Source of the DNA: Kiloniellales bacterium
Lineage (GTDB): Bacteria; Pseudomonadota; Alphaproteobacteria; Kiloniellales; JAKSBE01
Length of the DNA: 64,000 nt
Direction of reading: 5' to 3'
NCBI GenBank assembly: GCA_030066685.1
Contig: JASJBF010000031.1
Coordinates: forward strand, 1 to 64,000
The position numbers were made by a program, and so were the translations under genes. The notes below the pieces were generated by a model, which saw only the letters and a program-made list of their open reading frames with translations, did no database searches and was not told the DNA's origin. Positions within the stretch are counted from its first letter, which is position 1. Each line of letters opens with the position of its first letter. This document shows, in pieces, positions 1,682-53,944 of this stretch.

Positions 1682-2266
1682 CTTTCTCTCCACTACTTGC
1701 GCGTCCTTCGCCCCCGGCTTTCGGCAGGTCCACCGAGGGAGGCCAGTCCGGTGTGCCGCCCGACCCGCCGGGCATTCAGCCACCGTGTTGAGGCACGCTT
1801 CCGTCGCTTTCCTGGCGGGAACCAACGATCCGAGTACTTCCCCTCTCGACCGCGCCCGGTTTCCGCTTCTGGCGTCTGCTACCTGCTACGCTCCCCAACC
1901 CTTAACGTAAGATTAAAGGGTTCACGCGGGATTTCAAAGATTATTTATGCTTCGTTAATATCCGTGAGTAATTCCACCCAGGGATTTCCGCACGAACATG
2001 GTTAACACTTCATGAATCGCAGCAAGGACTGTGACGTCACGCGCAGGATTCCGCGGATTCTTGAGCATACGGCAAAGGGCGTATATGGCTTTTCGGGGCA
2101 GCCGCGGGCAGCGGGCCGCGACGGCGCCTCTTTCCCGCCGCGGTTAGGCGAGGCTCGCGACGCCGTCGGCGACTCCGCAAAACCGGCAACCTTGGGGGCC
2201 TGGAAGAGGCACAGGGCGGGGCTGCGGTGGCGGGGCCACCAGGGCGAGGGCCAGGCTTTGCGGCGG
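1682..2266. other. Intergenic stretch without a recognisable gene
   Basis: No gene is supported between the small gene and tRNA-Cys. Part of the stretch (about 1900-2020) is AT-rich compared with its surroundings and contains the possible CtrA site at 1902-1916, so it may hold regulatory DNA for the small minus-strand gene or for an unrecognised transcript. Open frames crossing the region have no motifs. Confidence 0.5.
1902..1916 (-). promoter_or_regulatory. Candidate CtrA binding site (TTAA-N7-TTAA)
   Basis: The sequence TTAACGTAAGATTAA has the full TTAA-N7-TTAA spacing recognised by the alphaproteobacterial cell-cycle regulator CtrA. It lies in an AT-rich patch upstream of the minus-strand 72-residue gene. 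The motif is short enough to arise by chance, so this is a candidate only. Confidence 0.4.
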
Positions 2267-2340
2267 TGGAGGCCCGGGCCGGAATCGAACCGACGTACGA
2301 GGCTTTGCAGGCCTCTGCATAACCACTCTGCCACCGGGCC
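2267..2340 (-). tRNA. tRNA-Cys (anticodon GCA)
   Basis: The minus strand gives a 74-base tRNA: acceptor stem GGCCCGG with CCGGGCC, anticodon stem GAGGC/GCCTC with loop CTGCAAA (anticodon GCA), and T arm with GGTTCGATTCC. The discriminator is T and CCA is encoded. A well-formed promoter lies at 2361-2389. No clear terminator was found downstream. Confidence 0.95.
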
Positions 2341-2360
2341 AAGGAAAGCGCAGGGCCGGA

Positions 2361-2389
2361 GGTATAGAACCCGCCCGGTATCGGGTCAA
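2361..2389 (-). promoter_or_regulatory. Sigma-70-type promoter of tRNA-Cys
   Basis: On the minus strand, -35 TTGACC (2384-2389) and -10 TATACC (2361-2366) are 17 bases apart; the tRNA starts 20 bases after the -10 box. Confidence 0.65.
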
Positions 2390-2444
2390 GGCGGCCCGGA
2401 CCGCGCTGCGCGCCGGGCGGGCGGCGGGCTTCGCGGAGCGGCGA

Positions 2445-2473
2445 TTGTCATCCTCAACGGGGCTCTCTATAAA
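2445..2473 (+). promoter_or_regulatory. Candidate promoter of the pcm-like gene
   Basis: -35 TTGTCA (2445-2450) and -10 TATAAA (2468-2473), each five of six bases to consensus, are separated by exactly 17 bases. This would give a leader of about 90 bases before the ATG at 2570. Confidence 0.6.
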
Positions 2474-2569
2474 GCGCTGGATCCCGAGCGAGCCCGGGCC
2501 CGAGAGAGCCCGCTGGGGCGTTCCGGGACAAGAACAGGCAACCACGGCAAAGCAGGGTGGGCAGCCAAG

Positions 2570-3226
2570 ATGTTCGACTTCGCGACAGCCCGCAGCAACA
2601 TGGTCGACAGCCAGCTCCGGACCAACAAGGTCACGGACGCCCGCGTCCTGGAGGCCTTTGCAGCCGTCCCGCGCGAGCGGTTCCTGCCCGAGGCGCGGGC
2701 CCGCGTGGCCTACGTCGACGAGGACTTGGAGGTGGCGCCGGGGCGTTATCTGATGGAGCCCCTGGTGCTCGCCCGGCTGCTCCAGGCGGCCCAGATCGAG
2801 GCCAGCGACGTGGTCCTGGACGTCGGCTGCACGACCGGCTACTCCAGCGCCGTCCTGGCCAGGCTCGCCGGGACCGTGGTGGCTCTGGAAAGCGATGCCG
2901 CGCTGCGCGATCAAGCCAACCAGACCCTCCAGGACCTGGGCATCGACAATGCGGTCGTGGTCGCGGGCGAGCTGACCGAGGGCTACCGCAAGCAGGCGCC
3001 CTACAACGTCATCCTGCTCGGCGGCGCCGTCACCGAGGTGCCGGAGGCGGTCCTCTCCCAGGTCGCGGAAGGCGGCCGCCTGGTCACCGTCATGGCGCCG
3101 CAGGCGCATACTGGCCAGGCGGTCCTGATCCGCAGGAGCGGCGGCCAGTCCTCGCGCCGGGTGCTCTTCGACGCGGCGGTCCGGCTGCTTCCCGGGTTCG
3201 CCAGGGCGCCGGGGTTCGTCTTCTGA
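2570..3226 (+). CDS. Pcm-like SAM-dependent methyltransferase with altered substrate motif
   Basis: The 218-residue protein has the fold signature of protein-L-isoaspartate O-methyltransferase: an N-terminal helical part (PRERFLP) and a SAM-binding glycine motif VVLDVGCTTGY at residues 81-91. The stretch that in true isoaspartate methyltransferases reads GQTISQP is here GRYLMEP (residues 58-64), so the residues that contact isoaspartate are changed. The second Pcm in this window (31844-32539) keeps the standard motif. The gene lies about 110 bp upstream of tolC, an arrangement I recall from other alphaproteobacteria. The ATG at 2570 begins the homology; a longer frame from 2012 crosses tRNA-Cys and is not coding. 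The methylated substrate is unknown. Confidence 0.85.
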   Translation: MFDFATARSNMVDSQLRTNKVTDARVLEAFAAVPRERFLPEARARVAYVDEDLEVAPGRYLMEPLVLARLLQAAQIEASDVVLDVGCTTGYSSAVLARLAGTVVALESDAALRDQANQTLQDLGIDNAVVVAGELTEGYRKQAPYNVILLGGAVTEVPEAVLSQVAEGGRLVTVMAPQAHTGQAVLIRRSGGQSSRRVLFDAAVRLLPGFARAPGFVF

Positions 3227-3338: not shown

Positions 3339-4739
3339 ATGACTTGGTTCTCAACGGACGAGACGCTGAACGGCTGCGCGCGCGCGACGATCACCCTGTT
3401 GGGGGTCGCTCTTGCCCTGGCAGCCTGGTCCGGCCCGGCGCGGGCGCTGACCTTGGAGGAGGCGCTTTCGGCCGCCTACGAAGAGAACCCGACCTTGCGC
3501 GCGGCGCGCGCCCAGCTTCGCTCGGTCAACGAGCAGGTCCCGCAGGAGCTCTCGAACTGGCGGCCGACGGTCACCGTCAACACGACCGTGGGGCAGGAGT
3601 ACGTGGACAGCGACAACAGCGAAGAACAGAATAGCACGACTCCCTTCGATGCCGAGGTGGTGGTCCAGCAGCCGCTCTATCGCGGCGGGCGGACCGTGGC
3701 CGGAACGCGGCGGGCCGAAAATGACATCCGTGCCGAGCGGCAGCGCCTCAGGTCGACTGAACAGGACGTGCTATTCGATGCGGTCGCCTCCTACATGGAC
3801 GTCTGGCGGGACGAAGCGGTGCTGCGCCTGACCATCAACAACGAGCAGGTGCTGACCCGGCAGCTCGAGGCCTCGCGCGACCGCTTTTCGGTCGGCGAGA
3901 TCACCCGCACCGACGTGGCGCAGTCCGAGGCGCGCCTCGCCCAGGCCACCGCCGACCGGATCCAGGCGGAAGGCAACCTGGCGGCCACCCGGGCCGTCTT
4001 TCGCGAGGTCATCGGCCTGGAGCCGGTCTCGCTCGCGCGGCCGCCGACCCTGGAGGACATTCCCAGCAACCTGAACGACATCGTCGGCCAGGCGCGGGTC
4101 GAAAACCCGGACGTTCAGGCTGCCGAGTTCGCGGAACGCTCGGCGCGCGACGAGGTCCGGGTGAGGATCGGTGAGCTCCTGCCCTCCGTCGCCCTGGAAG
4201 GCTCGCTGAGCCGGAGCGAGGACCTCGACGGCTCGGACTTCGAGCGCGACCAGGCCCAGATCCTGGCCCAGGTTACCGTGCCGCTCTACCAATCGGGCTT
4301 CGTCTACAGCCGGGTCCGCGAGGCCAAGCAGGTCGTCGGCCAGCGCCGCCTCGAGATCGACGAGGCCCGCCGGCGCGCCGAGCAGGAGGCCGTCAGCGCC
4401 TGGGAGCGCCTGACCACCGCCCGGGCCCAGATCGAGTCCTTCACCTCCCAGGTGCGGTCCAACGAAATCGCCCTCGAAGGCGTGCGCCAAGAGAACGCCG
4501 TGGGCGCCCGAACCATCCTCGACATCCTGGATGCCGAGCAGGAACTGCTCGATTCGCAGGTCGAACTGGTGCGCTCCGAAAGGGACGAAGTGGTGGCGAG
4601 CTACGACGTTCTCAGCGCCGTCGGGCGCCTGACCGCCACCGAAATTGCGCTGCCCGTTGAAATCTACGACGCAGAGTCCGATTATGGGACGGTTAAGGAC
4701 CGGTGGTTCGGGACGACAGCGCCTGGCTCAGGATACTGA
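3339..4739 (+). CDS. tolC: TolC-family outer membrane efflux/export channel
   Basis: The 466-residue protein starts with a signal peptide (cleavage likely after Ala36, in GPARA|LTLEEAL) and continues with the two repeated helical/strand halves of the outer membrane efflux family; LTLEEALSAAYEENP and the second-half motif VGARTILDILDAEQELLDSQ are typical. It forms a trimeric channel across the outer membrane and periplasm for type I secretion or RND/MFS efflux systems. No inner membrane partner is encoded nearby, so which systems it serves cannot be told. It has its own candidate promoter at 3267-3294 and is followed by popZ 91 bp downstream. Length is normal for the family. Confidence 0.93.
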   Translation: MTWFSTDETLNGCARATITLLGVALALAAWSGPARALTLEEALSAAYEENPTLRAARAQLRSVNEQVPQELSNWRPTVTVNTTVGQEYVDSDNSEEQNSTTPFDAEVVVQQPLYRGGRTVAGTRRAENDIRAERQRLRSTEQDVLFDAVASYMDVWRDEAVLRLTINNEQVLTRQLEASRDRFSVGEITRTDVAQSEARLAQATADRIQAEGNLAATRAVFREVIGLEPVSLARPPTLEDIPSNLNDIVGQARVENPDVQAAEFAERSARDEVRVRIGELLPSVALEGSLSRSEDLDGSDFERDQAQILAQVTVPLYQSGFVYSRVREAKQVVGQRRLEIDEARRRAEQEAVSAWERLTTARAQIESFTSQVRSNEIALEGVRQENAVGARTILDILDAEQELLDSQVELVRSERDEVVASYDVLSAVGRLTATEIALPVEIYDAESDYGTVKDRWFGTTAPGSGY

Positions 4740-4830: not shown

Positions 4831-6366
4831 ATGACCGACGCGAATCCAGAGAACGAACCCTCGATGGAGGAGATACTCGCCTCCATCCGGCGGATCATCT
4901 CCGACGGAGAAGAGGGCGAAGGCGAGGGGGAGGGGCAGGCCGAGGCCGTCGAGGCAACGGCGGCCGAGGCCCCGAGCGACGTCTTCTCGGCCCTGCCCAA
5001 GGGCGAGCCGGAGCCGGAGGCCGAGGAGGACATTCTCGATCTCACCCAGATGGTCACGGAGCAAGGCGAGGTCGTCGACCTCAACGAGGCGAAGTCGGCC
5101 CGCGGCCTCAGCCCTGCGGTCACCGAGCCGGCGGCGGCGAGCGATGACGACGTCGAGCTGACGATGGAAGGCCTGGCGCGGGCCCTGGACGACGTGATCG
5201 GCGAGGCGCCGGCGGAGGATCAAAGCGACGACGCCGCTACACTGGCCCCGGCGGCCGAGCCGGCCCAACCGGAAGAAGATGTCGTCCTGGCCGCCGCGGA
5301 GGAGGCCGTCGAGGTCGAGGAGGCGCTCGAGGAGCCGCTCTCGCCCTTGGATGCCCTGGCCGAGATCCAGGCGCTGGCCGAACAGCAGGCCGAGATGGAG
5401 GCCGCGCAGGCGCAAGCGCCGGAGGCCAGCGAGATGCCGGAGCCCTTCGAGGCTCCGGCGCCCGAACCTCTGGCCGTCGAGCCCCAGGCTCTCGAGCCCC
5501 AGGCCATCGAATCCCAGGCCATCGAACCCCAGGCCATCGAACCCCAGGCCATCGAGCCCCAGGCCATCGAGCCCCAGGCCATCGAGCCCCAGGCGATCGA
5601 GCCCACGGCTGCCGAAGAGGCGCCGCCGCTGGCCGCGTCTCCGGCGCCCGAAGCGCCGCTCGAACTCGTCGACCAGCTCGGCGCAGCGTCGGCCCCGGAC
5701 GAGGACGACGATGCCTTGACGGAGATCGACCAGATCCTGGCTCGGGCCCGCGAGGCGGCGCAGGCGCAGGCCGCCAAGATCCTGGAAGACGAGCCCGAGG
5801 CGCCGCCGCTCAGCCCCGAGGACCAGACGGCGGCCCTGCTGGCCGGACTGGAGCAGCAAGAGCAGATCACGCCGGGGCAGGGAATCCCCGACGACATCAG
5901 GACCGCCGTCGAAGAGAGTCTCGGCGGTGGCGGCGAGGAGGCCGATCCCAGAGGGGCCGGGCGGGATCCCTTCCAGGCGGTGATGCAGGCAGAAGCGAAC
6001 ATGGCCGGAGCGCAAGCGCAGGCGGACTCCGGAGGAGAGGAGCAGAACTTGGCCGACAGGAAAGAAAGCAGCCATCCGGACTACCGGTCTCGCGGCGACG
6101 AGTCCGACTCCGGCCTGATCTCGTCGAACACGGCCGCCGGCGCCATTGCGGCGCTGGGCGATCTCTCGCGCGCGGCGAGATCGAGCACCGGCGGCCAGGG
6201 CGGCGCGGCGACCGCGCTGGGCATGAACCGCACCCTGGAGGAGCTGGTCCTCGACGCCATGACCCCGCACCTCAAGGCCTGGCTCGATGCCAACCTGGAG
6301 CCCCTGGTCGAGCGGATCGTACGCGAGGAGATCCAGCGGCTGCGGCGGCGGTCCGAGGACTACTAG
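4831..6366 (+). CDS. popZ: PopZ-type cell pole-organising protein (DUF2497), unusually long
   Basis: Two ends define the family: the N-terminal helix PSMEEILASIRRIISDG (residues 10-26) and the C-terminal oligomerisation helices LEELVLDAMTPHLKAWL...LVERIVREEIQRL (about residues 468-505). In Caulobacter PopZ forms a polar matrix that binds ParB and other partners. Here the linker is a very long acidic, alanine/proline-rich disordered region, making 511 residues against under 200 for the Caulobacter protein. It contains nine tandem five-residue units of the form IEPQA (DNA 5476-5610). The ribosome binding site AGAGGAAC precedes the ATG. The position between tolC and valS is common for this gene in alphaproteobacteria. 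The family call is firm; polar function is inferred. Confidence 0.88.
   Translation: MTDANPENEPSMEEILASIRRIISDGEEGEGEGEGQAEAVEATAAEAPSDVFSALPKGEPEPEAEEDILDLTQMVTEQGEVVDLNEAKSARGLSPAVTEPAAASDDDVELTMEGLARALDDVIGEAPAEDQSDDAATLAPAAEPAQPEEDVVLAAAEEAVEVEEALEEPLSPLDALAEIQALAEQQAEMEAAQAQAPEASEMPEPFEAPAPEPLAVEPQALEPQAIESQAIEPQAIEPQAIEPQAIEPQAIEPQAIEPTAAEEAPPLAASPAPEAPLELVDQLGAASAPDEDDDALTEIDQILARAREAAQAQAAKILEDEPEAPPLSPEDQTAALLAGLEQQEQITPGQGIPDDIRTAVEESLGGGGEEADPRGAGRDPFQAVMQAEANMAGAQAQADSGGEEQNLADRKESSHPDYRSRGDESDSGLISSNTAAGAIAALGDLSRAARSSTGGQGGAATALGMNRTLEELVLDAMTPHLKAWLDANLEPLVERIVREEIQRLRRRSEDY
5476..5610 (+). repeat. Nine tandem 15-bp repeats inside popZ
   Basis: Nine consecutive 15-bp units encode VEPQA, LEPQA, IESQA, five IEPQA and IEPTA. 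Several central units are identical or differ at one base, which points to recent expansion by slippage or unequal exchange. The repeat keeps the reading frame. Confidence 0.95.
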
Positions 6367-6498
6367 GGCCGCGGGGCGCCGGCACCCGAAGCGAGAGCCT
6401 CTGGATCCGGTTCCGGGACAGGCACCCCCGCGGTGCCTGCCCGTTTCGATGTGACCCGCATCAGAACTCAAGCGAATTCTCGGAAGGACGGTTCAGCG

Positions 6499-9156
6499 AT
6501 GCTGGACAAGACCTATCGGCCGAAAGAGGTCGAAGCCAAGCGCTACAAGCAGTGGGAAGAGCAGGGCGCCTTCGCCGCCCGCCCCGACTCCAACGAGGCG
6601 CCCTATGCGATCATCATGCCGCCGCCGAACGTCACGGGCAGCCTGCACATCGGCCACGCGCTCACATTCACGATCCAGGACATCCTGATCCGCTACCACC
6701 GCATGGCCGGCCGCGACGCGCTCTGGCAGCCGGGCATGGACCATGCCGGGATCGCGACTCAGATGATGGTCGAGCGCCAGCTCGATGAGGAGGGCCTGCA
6801 CCGGCGCGACCTCGGTCGGGAGAAGTTCCTCGAGCGGGTCTGGGCCTGGAAGGAGGACTCCGGCGGCACCATCCTGAAGCAGTTGCGCCACCTCGGCGCT
6901 TCGGCGGACTGGCCGCGGACCTGCTTCACCATGGACGACGGCCCCTCCGCGGCGGTGCGCAAGGTCTTCGTCGAGCTCTACAAGCAGGGCCTGATCTACC
7001 GCGACAAGCGGCTGGTGAACTGGGACCCCAAGCTGCACACCGCGATCTCGGACCTGGAGGTGGAGCAGGTCGAGACCCAGGGCAAGCTCTGGCACTTCAA
7101 GTACCCGATCGAAGGCGAGGCGGGCCGCTTCATCGTCGTGGCCACGACCCGGCCCGAGACCATGCTGGGCGACACCGGGGTCGCGGTGCATCCGGAGGAC
7201 GACCGCTACAAGGACCTGGTTGGCAAGCACGCGATCCTGCCGCTGGTCGGCCGTCGCTTGCCCATCGTGGCCGACGACTACGCCGATCCCGAGCAGGGCT
7301 CGGGCGCGGTCAAGATGACCCCGGCCCACGACTTCAACGACTTCGAGGTCGGCCGCCGCCAGAACCTGGATCTGGTCAACATCTTCGACCGGGACGCGGT
7401 CCTCAACGACAACGTGCCGGAGACCTATCGTGGCCTCGACCGCTATGCGGCCCGCGAGCGGGTCGTCGCCGATCTGGAGGCCGGGGGCCTGCTGGAGAAG
7501 GTCGACGAGCACCTGCACACGGTGCCCCACGGCGACCGCTCGAAGGTCGCGGTCGAGCCCTGGCTGACCGACCAGTGGTTCGCCGATGCTGCGACCCTGG
7601 CCAAGCCCGCCATCGAGGCGGTCGAGGACGGCCGCACCGCGTTCGTGCCCAAGCAGTGGGAGAACACCTACTTCGAGTGGATGCGCAACATCCAGCCCTG
7701 GTGCATCTCGCGCCAGCTCTGGTGGGGCCATCGGATCCCGGCCTGGTACGGCCCGGGCGGCGAGATCTTCGTCGAGGAGAGCGAGGCGGCCGCCCTGGCC
7801 GCCGCCGAGGCCCACTACGGCACGCCAACCGAGCTGCGCCGGGACGAGGACGTGCTGGACACCTGGTTCTCCTCGGCGCTCTGGCCCTTCTCGACCCTAG
7901 GCTGGCCCGAGGAGACTCCGGAGCTGAAGCGCTACTATCCGGGCGACGTGCTGGTGACCGGCTTCGACATCATCTTCTTCTGGGTCGCCCGTATGATGAT
8001 GATGGGCCTGCACTTCCGGGGCGAGGTGCCCTTTCGGACCGTCTACATCCACGGCCTGATCCGCGACAAGTTCGGCCGCAAGATGTCGAAGACCACCGGC
8101 AACGTGGTCGATCCCCTGGAGACCATCGAGAAATACGGCTGCGATGCGCTGCGTTTCGGGCTGGCGGCCCTGCTGTCGCCGGGCCGGGACATCAAGCTCG
8201 ACACCGATCGCATCGAAGGCTTCCGCAACTTCGCCACCAAGCTCTGGAACGCCTCGCGCTACTGCCTGATGAACGGCGCCGCGCTCGACCCCGGCTTCGA
8301 TCCCTCGGGGTGCAGCGGCAAGATCAACCGCTGGATCGTCGGCCGGGCGACGGTGACCATGCAGAAGCTGACCGCCGCAGTCGACAGCTACCGCTTCGAC
8401 GAGGCGGCGGACCTGCTCTACCACTTCACCTGGCACGAGTTCTGCGACTGGTACATCGAGTTCTCCAAGCCGGTCCTGACCGGCGACGACGAGGCCGCGG
8501 CCGCCGAGACCCGGGCGGCCATGGCCTGGACCCTTGCGCAGATCCTGCACCTGCTACACCCCTTCATGCCCTTCATCACCGAGGAGCTCTGGGAGCAGCT
8601 CGGCGGCGCCGAGGCCGGCGACCTGATCTCCCGCCGGCTGCCGGAGCCGGACCCGCGCCTGGTCGATTCCGCCCTGAACAACGAGCTGGACTGGGTGATC
8701 GCCCTGATCCGCGACGTCCGTTCCCTGCGCTCCGAGACCAACGTCCCGGGCGGTGCCAAGATCGATCTGCTTCTGCGGCCGGAGGGCGAGGGCATCGCCG
8801 AGCGTCTGGCGGAGTATCGCGGCTTCGTGCAGCGCCTGGCGCGCCTGAGCGACATCAAGCCTCTGGACGGCGAGGCACCGCAGGGCTCGGTGCCGCTTCT
8901 GGTGGACGGCGCGACAGCGGTCCTGCCCTTGGCCGAGGTCATCGACGTCGGCAAGGAGGCGGCGAGCCTCAAGAAGGAGATCGCCGGCCTCGACCAGGAC
9001 TTCGCCAAACTCGACAAGAAGCTGTCGAACGAGCAGTTCCTGGCCAAGGCGCCGCTCGAGGTGGTCGAGGAGAACAAGCAGCGCCGCGAGGCCCTGGTCG
9101 AGAAGCGGGCCAAGCTCACCGCGGCCCTGGAGCGCCTGACCGGGGGACCGGCCTGA
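6499..9156 (+). CDS. valS: Valyl-tRNA synthetase
   Basis: This class I aminoacyl-tRNA synthetase charges tRNA-Val. The 885-residue protein shows PPPNVTGSLHIGHA with the HIGH motif at residues 50-53, the insertion editing domain, and GRKMSKTTGNV with the KMSK motif at 528-531. The C-terminal part (from about residue 810) is the coiled-coil arm typical of ValRS. The ATG at 6499 is chosen because homology starts at LDKTYRPKEVE and a GGAAGGA box lies upstream; an earlier in-frame start at 6433 adds a stretch unlike the family. It probably forms its own unit or is co-transcribed with popZ, 132 bp upstream. Confidence 0.97.
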   Translation: MLDKTYRPKEVEAKRYKQWEEQGAFAARPDSNEAPYAIIMPPPNVTGSLHIGHALTFTIQDILIRYHRMAGRDALWQPGMDHAGIATQMMVERQLDEEGLHRRDLGREKFLERVWAWKEDSGGTILKQLRHLGASADWPRTCFTMDDGPSAAVRKVFVELYKQGLIYRDKRLVNWDPKLHTAISDLEVEQVETQGKLWHFKYPIEGEAGRFIVVATTRPETMLGDTGVAVHPEDDRYKDLVGKHAILPLVGRRLPIVADDYADPEQGSGAVKMTPAHDFNDFEVGRRQNLDLVNIFDRDAVLNDNVPETYRGLDRYAARERVVADLEAGGLLEKVDEHLHTVPHGDRSKVAVEPWLTDQWFADAATLAKPAIEAVEDGRTAFVPKQWENTYFEWMRNIQPWCISRQLWWGHRIPAWYGPGGEIFVEESEAAALAAAEAHYGTPTELRRDEDVLDTWFSSALWPFSTLGWPEETPELKRYYPGDVLVTGFDIIFFWVARMMMMGLHFRGEVPFRTVYIHGLIRDKFGRKMSKTTGNVVDPLETIEKYGCDALRFGLAALLSPGRDIKLDTDRIEGFRNFATKLWNASRYCLMNGAALDPGFDPSGCSGKINRWIVGRATVTMQKLTAAVDSYRFDEAADLLYHFTWHEFCDWYIEFSKPVLTGDDEAAAAETRAAMAWTLAQILHLLHPFMPFITEELWEQLGGAEAGDLISRRLPEPDPRLVDSALNNELDWVIALIRDVRSLRSETNVPGGAKIDLLLRPEGEGIAERLAEYRGFVQRLARLSDIKPLDGEAPQGSVPLLVDGATAVLPLAEVIDVGKEAASLKKEIAGLDQDFAKLDKKLSNEQFLAKAPLEVVEENKQRREALVEKRAKLTAALERLTGGPA

Positions 9157-53175: not shown

Positions 53176-53323
53176 CCTATGAGGTCGTCTTGGTCTTCCC
53201 GGTTGGTCCCACTATGGGCGATTGGCCCGGCAAAATCGAGCCTCCCGGACAGCCAAGCGCCAAGCTCCTGACATAGCTGGAGACTTTTCCGGGGCTTGGC
53301 AAGAGCCGCGCTTGCGTTATCAT

Positions 53324-53338
53324 GTTCACTGTATGTTC
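53324..53338. promoter_or_regulatory. LexA (SOS) box between uvrA and ssb
   Basis: GTTCACTGTATGTTC fits the alphaproteobacterial LexA consensus GTTC-N7-GTTC exactly. It lies in the divergent region between uvrA (starts 53175, minus) and ssb (starts 53474, plus), about 150 bp from each start, and could control both. Confidence 0.8.
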
Positions 53339-53473
53339 TGGGGTGCGACTCGGGCGTTTTGGCTCGTCTTGCAGAACGTTACGCAGGGTCGTTGCCTGTG
53401 GATCGTTGGCCTTTGCGCGATCCGGGTGCGGTCGCTAGAGTCCGCGAAAGAATCGAGGAAGGAGCGCCGAAAC

Positions 53474-53944
53474 ATGGCGGGGAGCGTCAACAAGGTCATT
53501 CTGGTCGGCAACCTGGGGCGGGATCCGGAGATCCGCACGACCAACGACGGCACCAAGGTCGCCAACCTGTCGCTGGCGACCAGCGAGAGCTGGCGCGACC
53601 GCAATAGCGGCGAGCGGCGCGAGCGGACCGAATGGCACCGGGTGGTGATCTTCAACGACCGCTTGGTCGACGTCGTCGAGAAGTACTTGAACAAGGGCTC
53701 CAAGATCTACGTCGAGGGCCAGCTCCAGACCCGCAAGTGGACCGACAGGGACGGCCAGGAGCGCTATACCACAGAGGTCGTGCTGCAGCGCTTCCGCGGC
53801 GAGCTGACCATGCTGGACGGCCGGAGCGGCGGCGGCGGGGGCGACTTCGGCGGCGGCGGTGGTGGCGGCCAGGACTTCGGCGGAGGCGGCGGGGCGCCCT
53901 CCGGCGGCGGCGCCGGCGACCTCGACGACGACATCCCGTTTTAG
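53474..53944 (+). CDS. ssb: Single-stranded DNA-binding protein
   Basis: The OB-fold core ([44 protein letters not shown]) is followed by a Gly-rich linker and the acidic C-terminal tip DDDIPF that recruits repair and replication partners. 156 residues. The ATG at 53474 has GGAG upstream; the in-frame extension to 53222 is not homologous. Shares the intergenic LexA box with uvrA. Confidence 0.97.

Follow-up and report, generated by a model that had tools for sequence, protein, structure and literature searches.

PopZ (polar organizing protein Z) organizes the cell poles of Alphaproteobacteria and serves as a model of condensates whose material properties are set by a disordered linker. Condensation of the Caulobacter protein is driven by its oligomerization domain, and its linker adjusts fluidity in opposition to that domain (PMC9512792); the N-terminal helix binds clients (PMC9926476). 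The acidic linker opposes condensation, and a longer linker yields a more fluid condensate; when the linker was doubled to 156 residues, the condensate was more fluid and the cells less fit, and function could be restored by an oligomerization domain of higher valency (PMC9512792). Clade-specific linker lengths have already been reported, as has an insertion between helices 2 and 3 in Brevundimonas PopZ (PMC9512792). The latter protein is thus also clade-specifically enlarged, but inside the oligomerization domain, whereas the Kiloniellales PopZ described here is enlarged in its linker.

The Kiloniellales protein shares with Caulobacter crescentus PopZ helix 1, an acidic disordered linker, and the C-terminal three-helix oligomerization domain (DUF2497). 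It differs in having a linker of about 392 residues, compared with a disordered region of 78 residues in C. crescentus (PMC9512792), and also in having less proline, extra conserved helix-like segments, and a pentapeptide array.

Identity of the gene and its neighborhood

The window, a stretch of 64,000 nucleotides, comes from a Kiloniellales family that is sampled as one genus with three species. It contains a 511-codon open reading frame that begins with ATG at position 4831, with the following features and neighbors.

3339 to 4739, + strand: gene for a TolC-like outer membrane efflux protein, upstream of popZ (PF02321)
4831 to 6366, + strand: popZ, 511 aa (open reading frame; PF10691; tolC-popZ-valS order as in most homologues)
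4864 to 4905, + strand: helix 1, MEEILASIRRIISD, residues 12 to 25 (sequence; invariant in the three congeners; AF2 helix at 12 to 27)
6112 to 6348, + strand: C-terminal oligomerization domain (DUF2497), helices 2 to 4, residues 428 to 506 (PF10691; AF2 helices at 432 to 452 and 458 to 510)
6433 to 9156, + strand: valS, valyl-tRNA synthetase gene, downstream of popZ (PF00133, PF10458)

Judged by its sequence and setting, the product is PopZ, the polar scaffold. Residues 428 to 506 match PF10691/DUF2497 with an E value of 2.6e-18 (66.7 bits against a cut-off of 27), and the oligomerization domain is of normal size. At the other end, MEEILASIRRIIS at residues 12 to 24 agrees with the consensus of 82 homologues, PSMEEILASIRRIISE; by analogy, helix 1 corresponds to the N-terminal helix with which Caulobacter PopZ binds its clients. 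The protein scores 93.9 bits, in two stretches, against the NCBIfam model PopZ_fam (NF052660), which is below the curated cut-off of 125, as expected since the middle of the protein is much longer than in this 167-position model of a more restricted, short-linker subfamily. The PDB gave no match by phmmer; with a profile, the one hit was PopZ 6xry, matched weakly over the N-terminal helix (E = 0.21). The genome contains one DUF2497 gene. In a comparison set of 88 PopZs, all distinct and drawn from the order and class, from which 16 unparsed loci were left out, valS lies near popZ at 76 loci and tolC at 84, the present locus being among both. These results bear out the sequence-only reading of the gene as a PopZ with normal conserved ends.

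Elsewhere in the window, a tRNA-Cys gene (2267 to 2340, − strand) lies within a mechanically called open reading frame (2012 to 3226), of which only the later part is likely to be coding; it reads like a protein-L-isoaspartate methyltransferase. A further open reading frame (53222 to 53944) resembles a single-stranded-DNA-binding protein with the C terminus DLDDDIPF. The glycine-rich tail of this protein is encoded in part by a GCG-rich, imperfect 24-bp repeat (53826 to 53918) that looks ordinary.

Length and composition of the linker

The linker spans residues 27 to 418 and is clearly acidic, with 25% Asp plus Glu, 3% Lys plus Arg, and a net charge per residue of −0.22; most of it has low pLDDT. 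Alanine makes up 21% and proline 10%, the latter below the 23 to 29% of Caulobacterales PopZ linkers (PMC9512792). Across the 88 PopZs, the median linker has 125 residues and the extremes are 49 and 392; the three congeners are the three longest, with proteins of 511, 486, and 455 aa and linkers of 392, 367, and 336 residues. The longest linker outside the genus has 258 residues. Among the matches listed in a class-wide search, open frames outside the genus reach at most 395 codons; those from a search of the order reach at most 464 codons, a figure that also counts sequence ahead of the start codon and is thus an upper bound. Since 16 loci were unparsed and the class matches were taken from those listed, the rank of longest linker applies to this sample. 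The earlier description of a greatly expanded, acidic, Ala/Pro-rich linker of more than 350 residues is thus accurate.

Lasker et al. report that charge declines as the PopZ linker lengthens. Charge and linker length were not correlated among the 88 PopZs (rho = 0.07, P = 0.49), and we therefore rejected a lowering of charge as the means by which length is offset.

The pentapeptide array

Within the linker lies a tandem array that had been noticed in the sequence-only reading.

5476 to 5610, + strand: nine 15-bp units encoding [VLI]E[PS][QT]A pentapeptides, residues 216 to 260 (TRF; in-frame units; pLDDT below 50)

TRF reports 8.9 copies of the 15-bp unit at 5472 to 5604 with a score of 210, compared with 77 for the next-best array elsewhere in the window. 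Read in frame, the units encode VEPQA, LEPQA, IESQA, five copies of IEPQA, and IEPTA. Between any two units, 0 to 5 of the 15 bases differ. Likeness is greatest between neighboring units and the terminal units are the most divergent, a pattern that fits stepwise slippage. The 15-bp unit was not found elsewhere in the genome. Codon identity among the units is 0.745, compared with 0.636 expected from the codon bias of popZ and two neighboring genes; at P = 0.07, it was rejected as proof of recent duplication, and because codon bias accounts for much of the DNA uniformity, it is weak evidence of age.

The comparison of species is better evidence that the array is recent. The congeners are two Kiloniellales MAGs, JAKSBE010000199 and JANQGU010000424 (G001, 455 aa; G002, 486 aa), so that the genus is represented by three species with one genome each. 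Where the array would lie, about four degenerate xLEPx units with mixed codons are present in G002, and no clear array was found in G001. Repeat number thus varies from species to species within the genus; even in these closest relatives the array is degenerate or absent, as would be expected of the recent growth proposed from sequence alone. The most likely origin of the array is recent replication slippage that multiplied a few xLEPx units.

The repeats do not account for the expansion of the linker. They contribute 45 of about 392 residues, and the congeners that lack the array nevertheless have linkers of 367 and 336 residues. Most of the extra length is therefore genus-wide and older than the array. 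This bears on one explanation of the linker, that it is a uniform disordered spacer that grew largely by repeats, with its length tuning fluidity and its repeat number acting as a strain-variable tuning knob. The array is real and its units are near-identical, and in Caulobacter, linker length and acidity do set condensate fluidity (PMC9512792). However, this explanation is unlikely in view of the small share of the repeats, the rank of the array-less congeners as next longest, and the presence of constrained segments in the linker (see below).

Tandem arrays are common among the 88 PopZ genes. A TRF score of 50 or more is reached in 49 genes, 100 or more in 19, and 200 or more in 4; the present array is fourth in score. 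Units are diverse, ranging from EP dipeptides to one of 23 aa. The array is thus, as such, an ordinary and routine product of linker evolution.

Conserved segments in the linker

In the alignment of the three congeners, conserved blocks alternate with variable spacers. We distinguish seven segments, chosen by eye on conservation, and those specific to the genus are of more interest than the array.

5026 to 5109, + strand: I1, EDILDLTQMVTEQGEVVDLNEAKSARGL, class-wide linker motif, residues 66 to 93 (z > 4 in 54 of 85 noncongeneric PopZs)
5155 to 5208, + strand: I2, conserved in the genus only, predicted helix, residues 109 to 126 (motif scan, dN/dS, AF2)
5332 to 5403, + strand: I3, conserved in the genus only, predicted helix, residues 168 to 191 (motif scan, dN/dS, AF2 with pLDDT of about 80)
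5707 to 5787, + strand: I4, DDALTEIDQILARAREAAQAQAAKILE, conserved in the genus only, predicted helix, residues 293 to 319 (motif scan, dN/dS, AF2 with pLDDT of 71 to 87)
5803 to 5853, + strand: I5, conserved in the genus only, predicted helix, residues 325 to 341 (motif scan, dN/dS, AF2)
5881 to 5931, + strand: I6, GIPDDIRTAVEESLGGG, conserved in the genus only, predicted helix, residues 351 to 367 (motif scan, dN/dS, AF2)
5965 to 6009, + strand: I7, weakly conserved candidate, residues 379 to 393 (AF2 helix at 380 to 399)

Block I1 (EDILDLTQMVTEQGEVVDL) is common to the 54 other PopZs counted above, and Caulobacter PopZ has an LELT-type motif early in its linker. Matches to the remaining segments with z > 4 among the 85 other PopZs were limited to one for I3 and one for I4; there were none for I2, I5, I6, or I7. 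AF2 predicts linker helices at residues 112 to 123, 172 to 195, 291 to 319, 329 to 344, 354 to 363, and 380 to 399, and pLDDT is below 50 over residues 196 to 290, the array included; the model was made from a three-row alignment and has a mean pLDDT of 54 and a pTM of 0.18.

Invariant columns are clustered along the linker. The variance of their number in 12-column windows is 7.5, compared with 2.6 after shuffling (reached in 0 of 3,000 shuffles), and with I1 removed it is 6.9 compared with 2.7 (0 of 3,000). Segments I2 to I7 taken together have a dN/dS of 0.09 to 0.14, similar to the 0.10 to 0.17 of the oligomerization domain, and the remaining linker has a dN/dS of 0.37 to 0.52, so that the spacers evolve about four times faster. 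Synonymous difference is similar (0.32 to 0.38 versus 0.40 to 0.47). Because the segments were selected on conservation, their low dN/dS is partly circular, and the clustering of invariant columns relative to shuffles gives a fairer test. One of the three comparisons shows no more than moderate constraint on I2 and I3 (dN/dS of 0.36 and 0.29), and I7 has a dN/dS of 0.55 to 1.7 in both comparisons with G001, against which it is unconstrained. Five or six short linker segments are thus genus-specific and, to judge from their substitution patterns, constrained; their function we infer. We found no mention of these genus-specific segments in the open-access papers that we searched.

These data also bear on whether the linker is a product of neutral drift, in which slippage expands GC-rich, repeat-prone linker DNA across many PopZs, leaving conserved stretches as remnants of no special role. 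The frequency of arrays scoring at least 50 (49 of the 88 genes), with very different units, and the span of linker lengths from 49 to 392 are what such drift would produce. However, the clustering of invariant residues and the dN/dS near 0.1 in I2 to I6 point to purifying selection and make drift quite improbable as an explanation.

An origin of the segments as one or more domains gained by recombination with another gene, rather than by growth in place, would fit the existence of other PopZs without them. Such an origin is very improbable, because the linker segments have no Pfam match up to an E value of 5, a class-wide search with residues 291 to 400 gave only weak matches outside the window (about E = 1e-3 or worse), and low-complexity sequence separates the segments. 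The lack of a Pfam match likewise led us to reject the presence of a known domain in the linker. We also considered I4 as a second client-binding helix 1 and rejected it; the 82-sequence helix 1 profile scores best in the linker at I1 (residue 62; P = 0.03).

Comparison with other genera

The pattern of conserved segments seems particular to this Kiloniellales genus, in a sequence comparison that covers few species and genera of differing divergence. I1 is the sole conserved linker block in genus g22 (eight species, with linkers of 174 to 211 residues) and likewise in g7, and in g14 the conserved parts are I1 and an EP stretch; the species of g26 and g16 are few and closely similar.

Other PopZs of the order, such as L017 (23-aa units), L105 (11-aa units), and L009 (EP repeats), likewise have linkers that consist partly of tandem repeats, and some of these outscore the present array in TRF. 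Their units are unrelated in sequence, and their linkers have 133 to 246 residues. A comparable set of genus-conserved helices was not found in the genera open to comparison. The I1 pattern LELT..MVTE.G.VVDL resembles the 11-aa unit SPLDLTEEDE, of which L105 has about four tandem copies; in L017, a different peptide of 23 aa is repeated three times. Repetition of a motif, not of spacer, might raise valency.

Proposed role of the linker

The Kiloniellales PopZ is a variant of a known family, and the roles proposed here for its segments are putative. By analogy with Caulobacter, it would form a polar condensate, which the acidic, Ala/Pro-rich spacers would make more open and fluid. The conserved helical segments may provide additional sites at which PopZ itself or clients bind, and these sites could partly offset the long repulsive linker. 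We thus regard the protein as probably a PopZ scaffold whose long acidic linker bears additional helical segments for interaction and, between these, a rapidly evolving spacer of repeats. The array lies within the least conserved spacer and is the part of the linker least likely to matter; alone, it is probably a near-neutral or fine-tuning change in length of 45 residues.

The sequence-only reading had also suggested that linker expansion may change the polar matrix. A longer linker does alter the condensate of Caulobacter PopZ (PMC9512792), but the direction of the effect cannot be read from length alone, since this linker also carries conserved helix-like segments. We tentatively propose, as a possibility that we hold with less confidence than the overall architecture, that the helices gained in the linker are added sites for self-association or client docking that keep the material properties of the matrix despite a linker about five times as long as that of Caulobacter.

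The linker lengths tested in Caulobacter PopZ, 40, 78, and 156 residues, covered modest changes only (PMC9512792). With its constrained segments and about 392 residues, this natural linker makes it possible to test whether length is offset in evolution by extra attractive sites. If it is, the Kiloniellales protein would parallel, by natural evolution, the compensation of linker length by valency that was engineered in Caulobacter PopZ.
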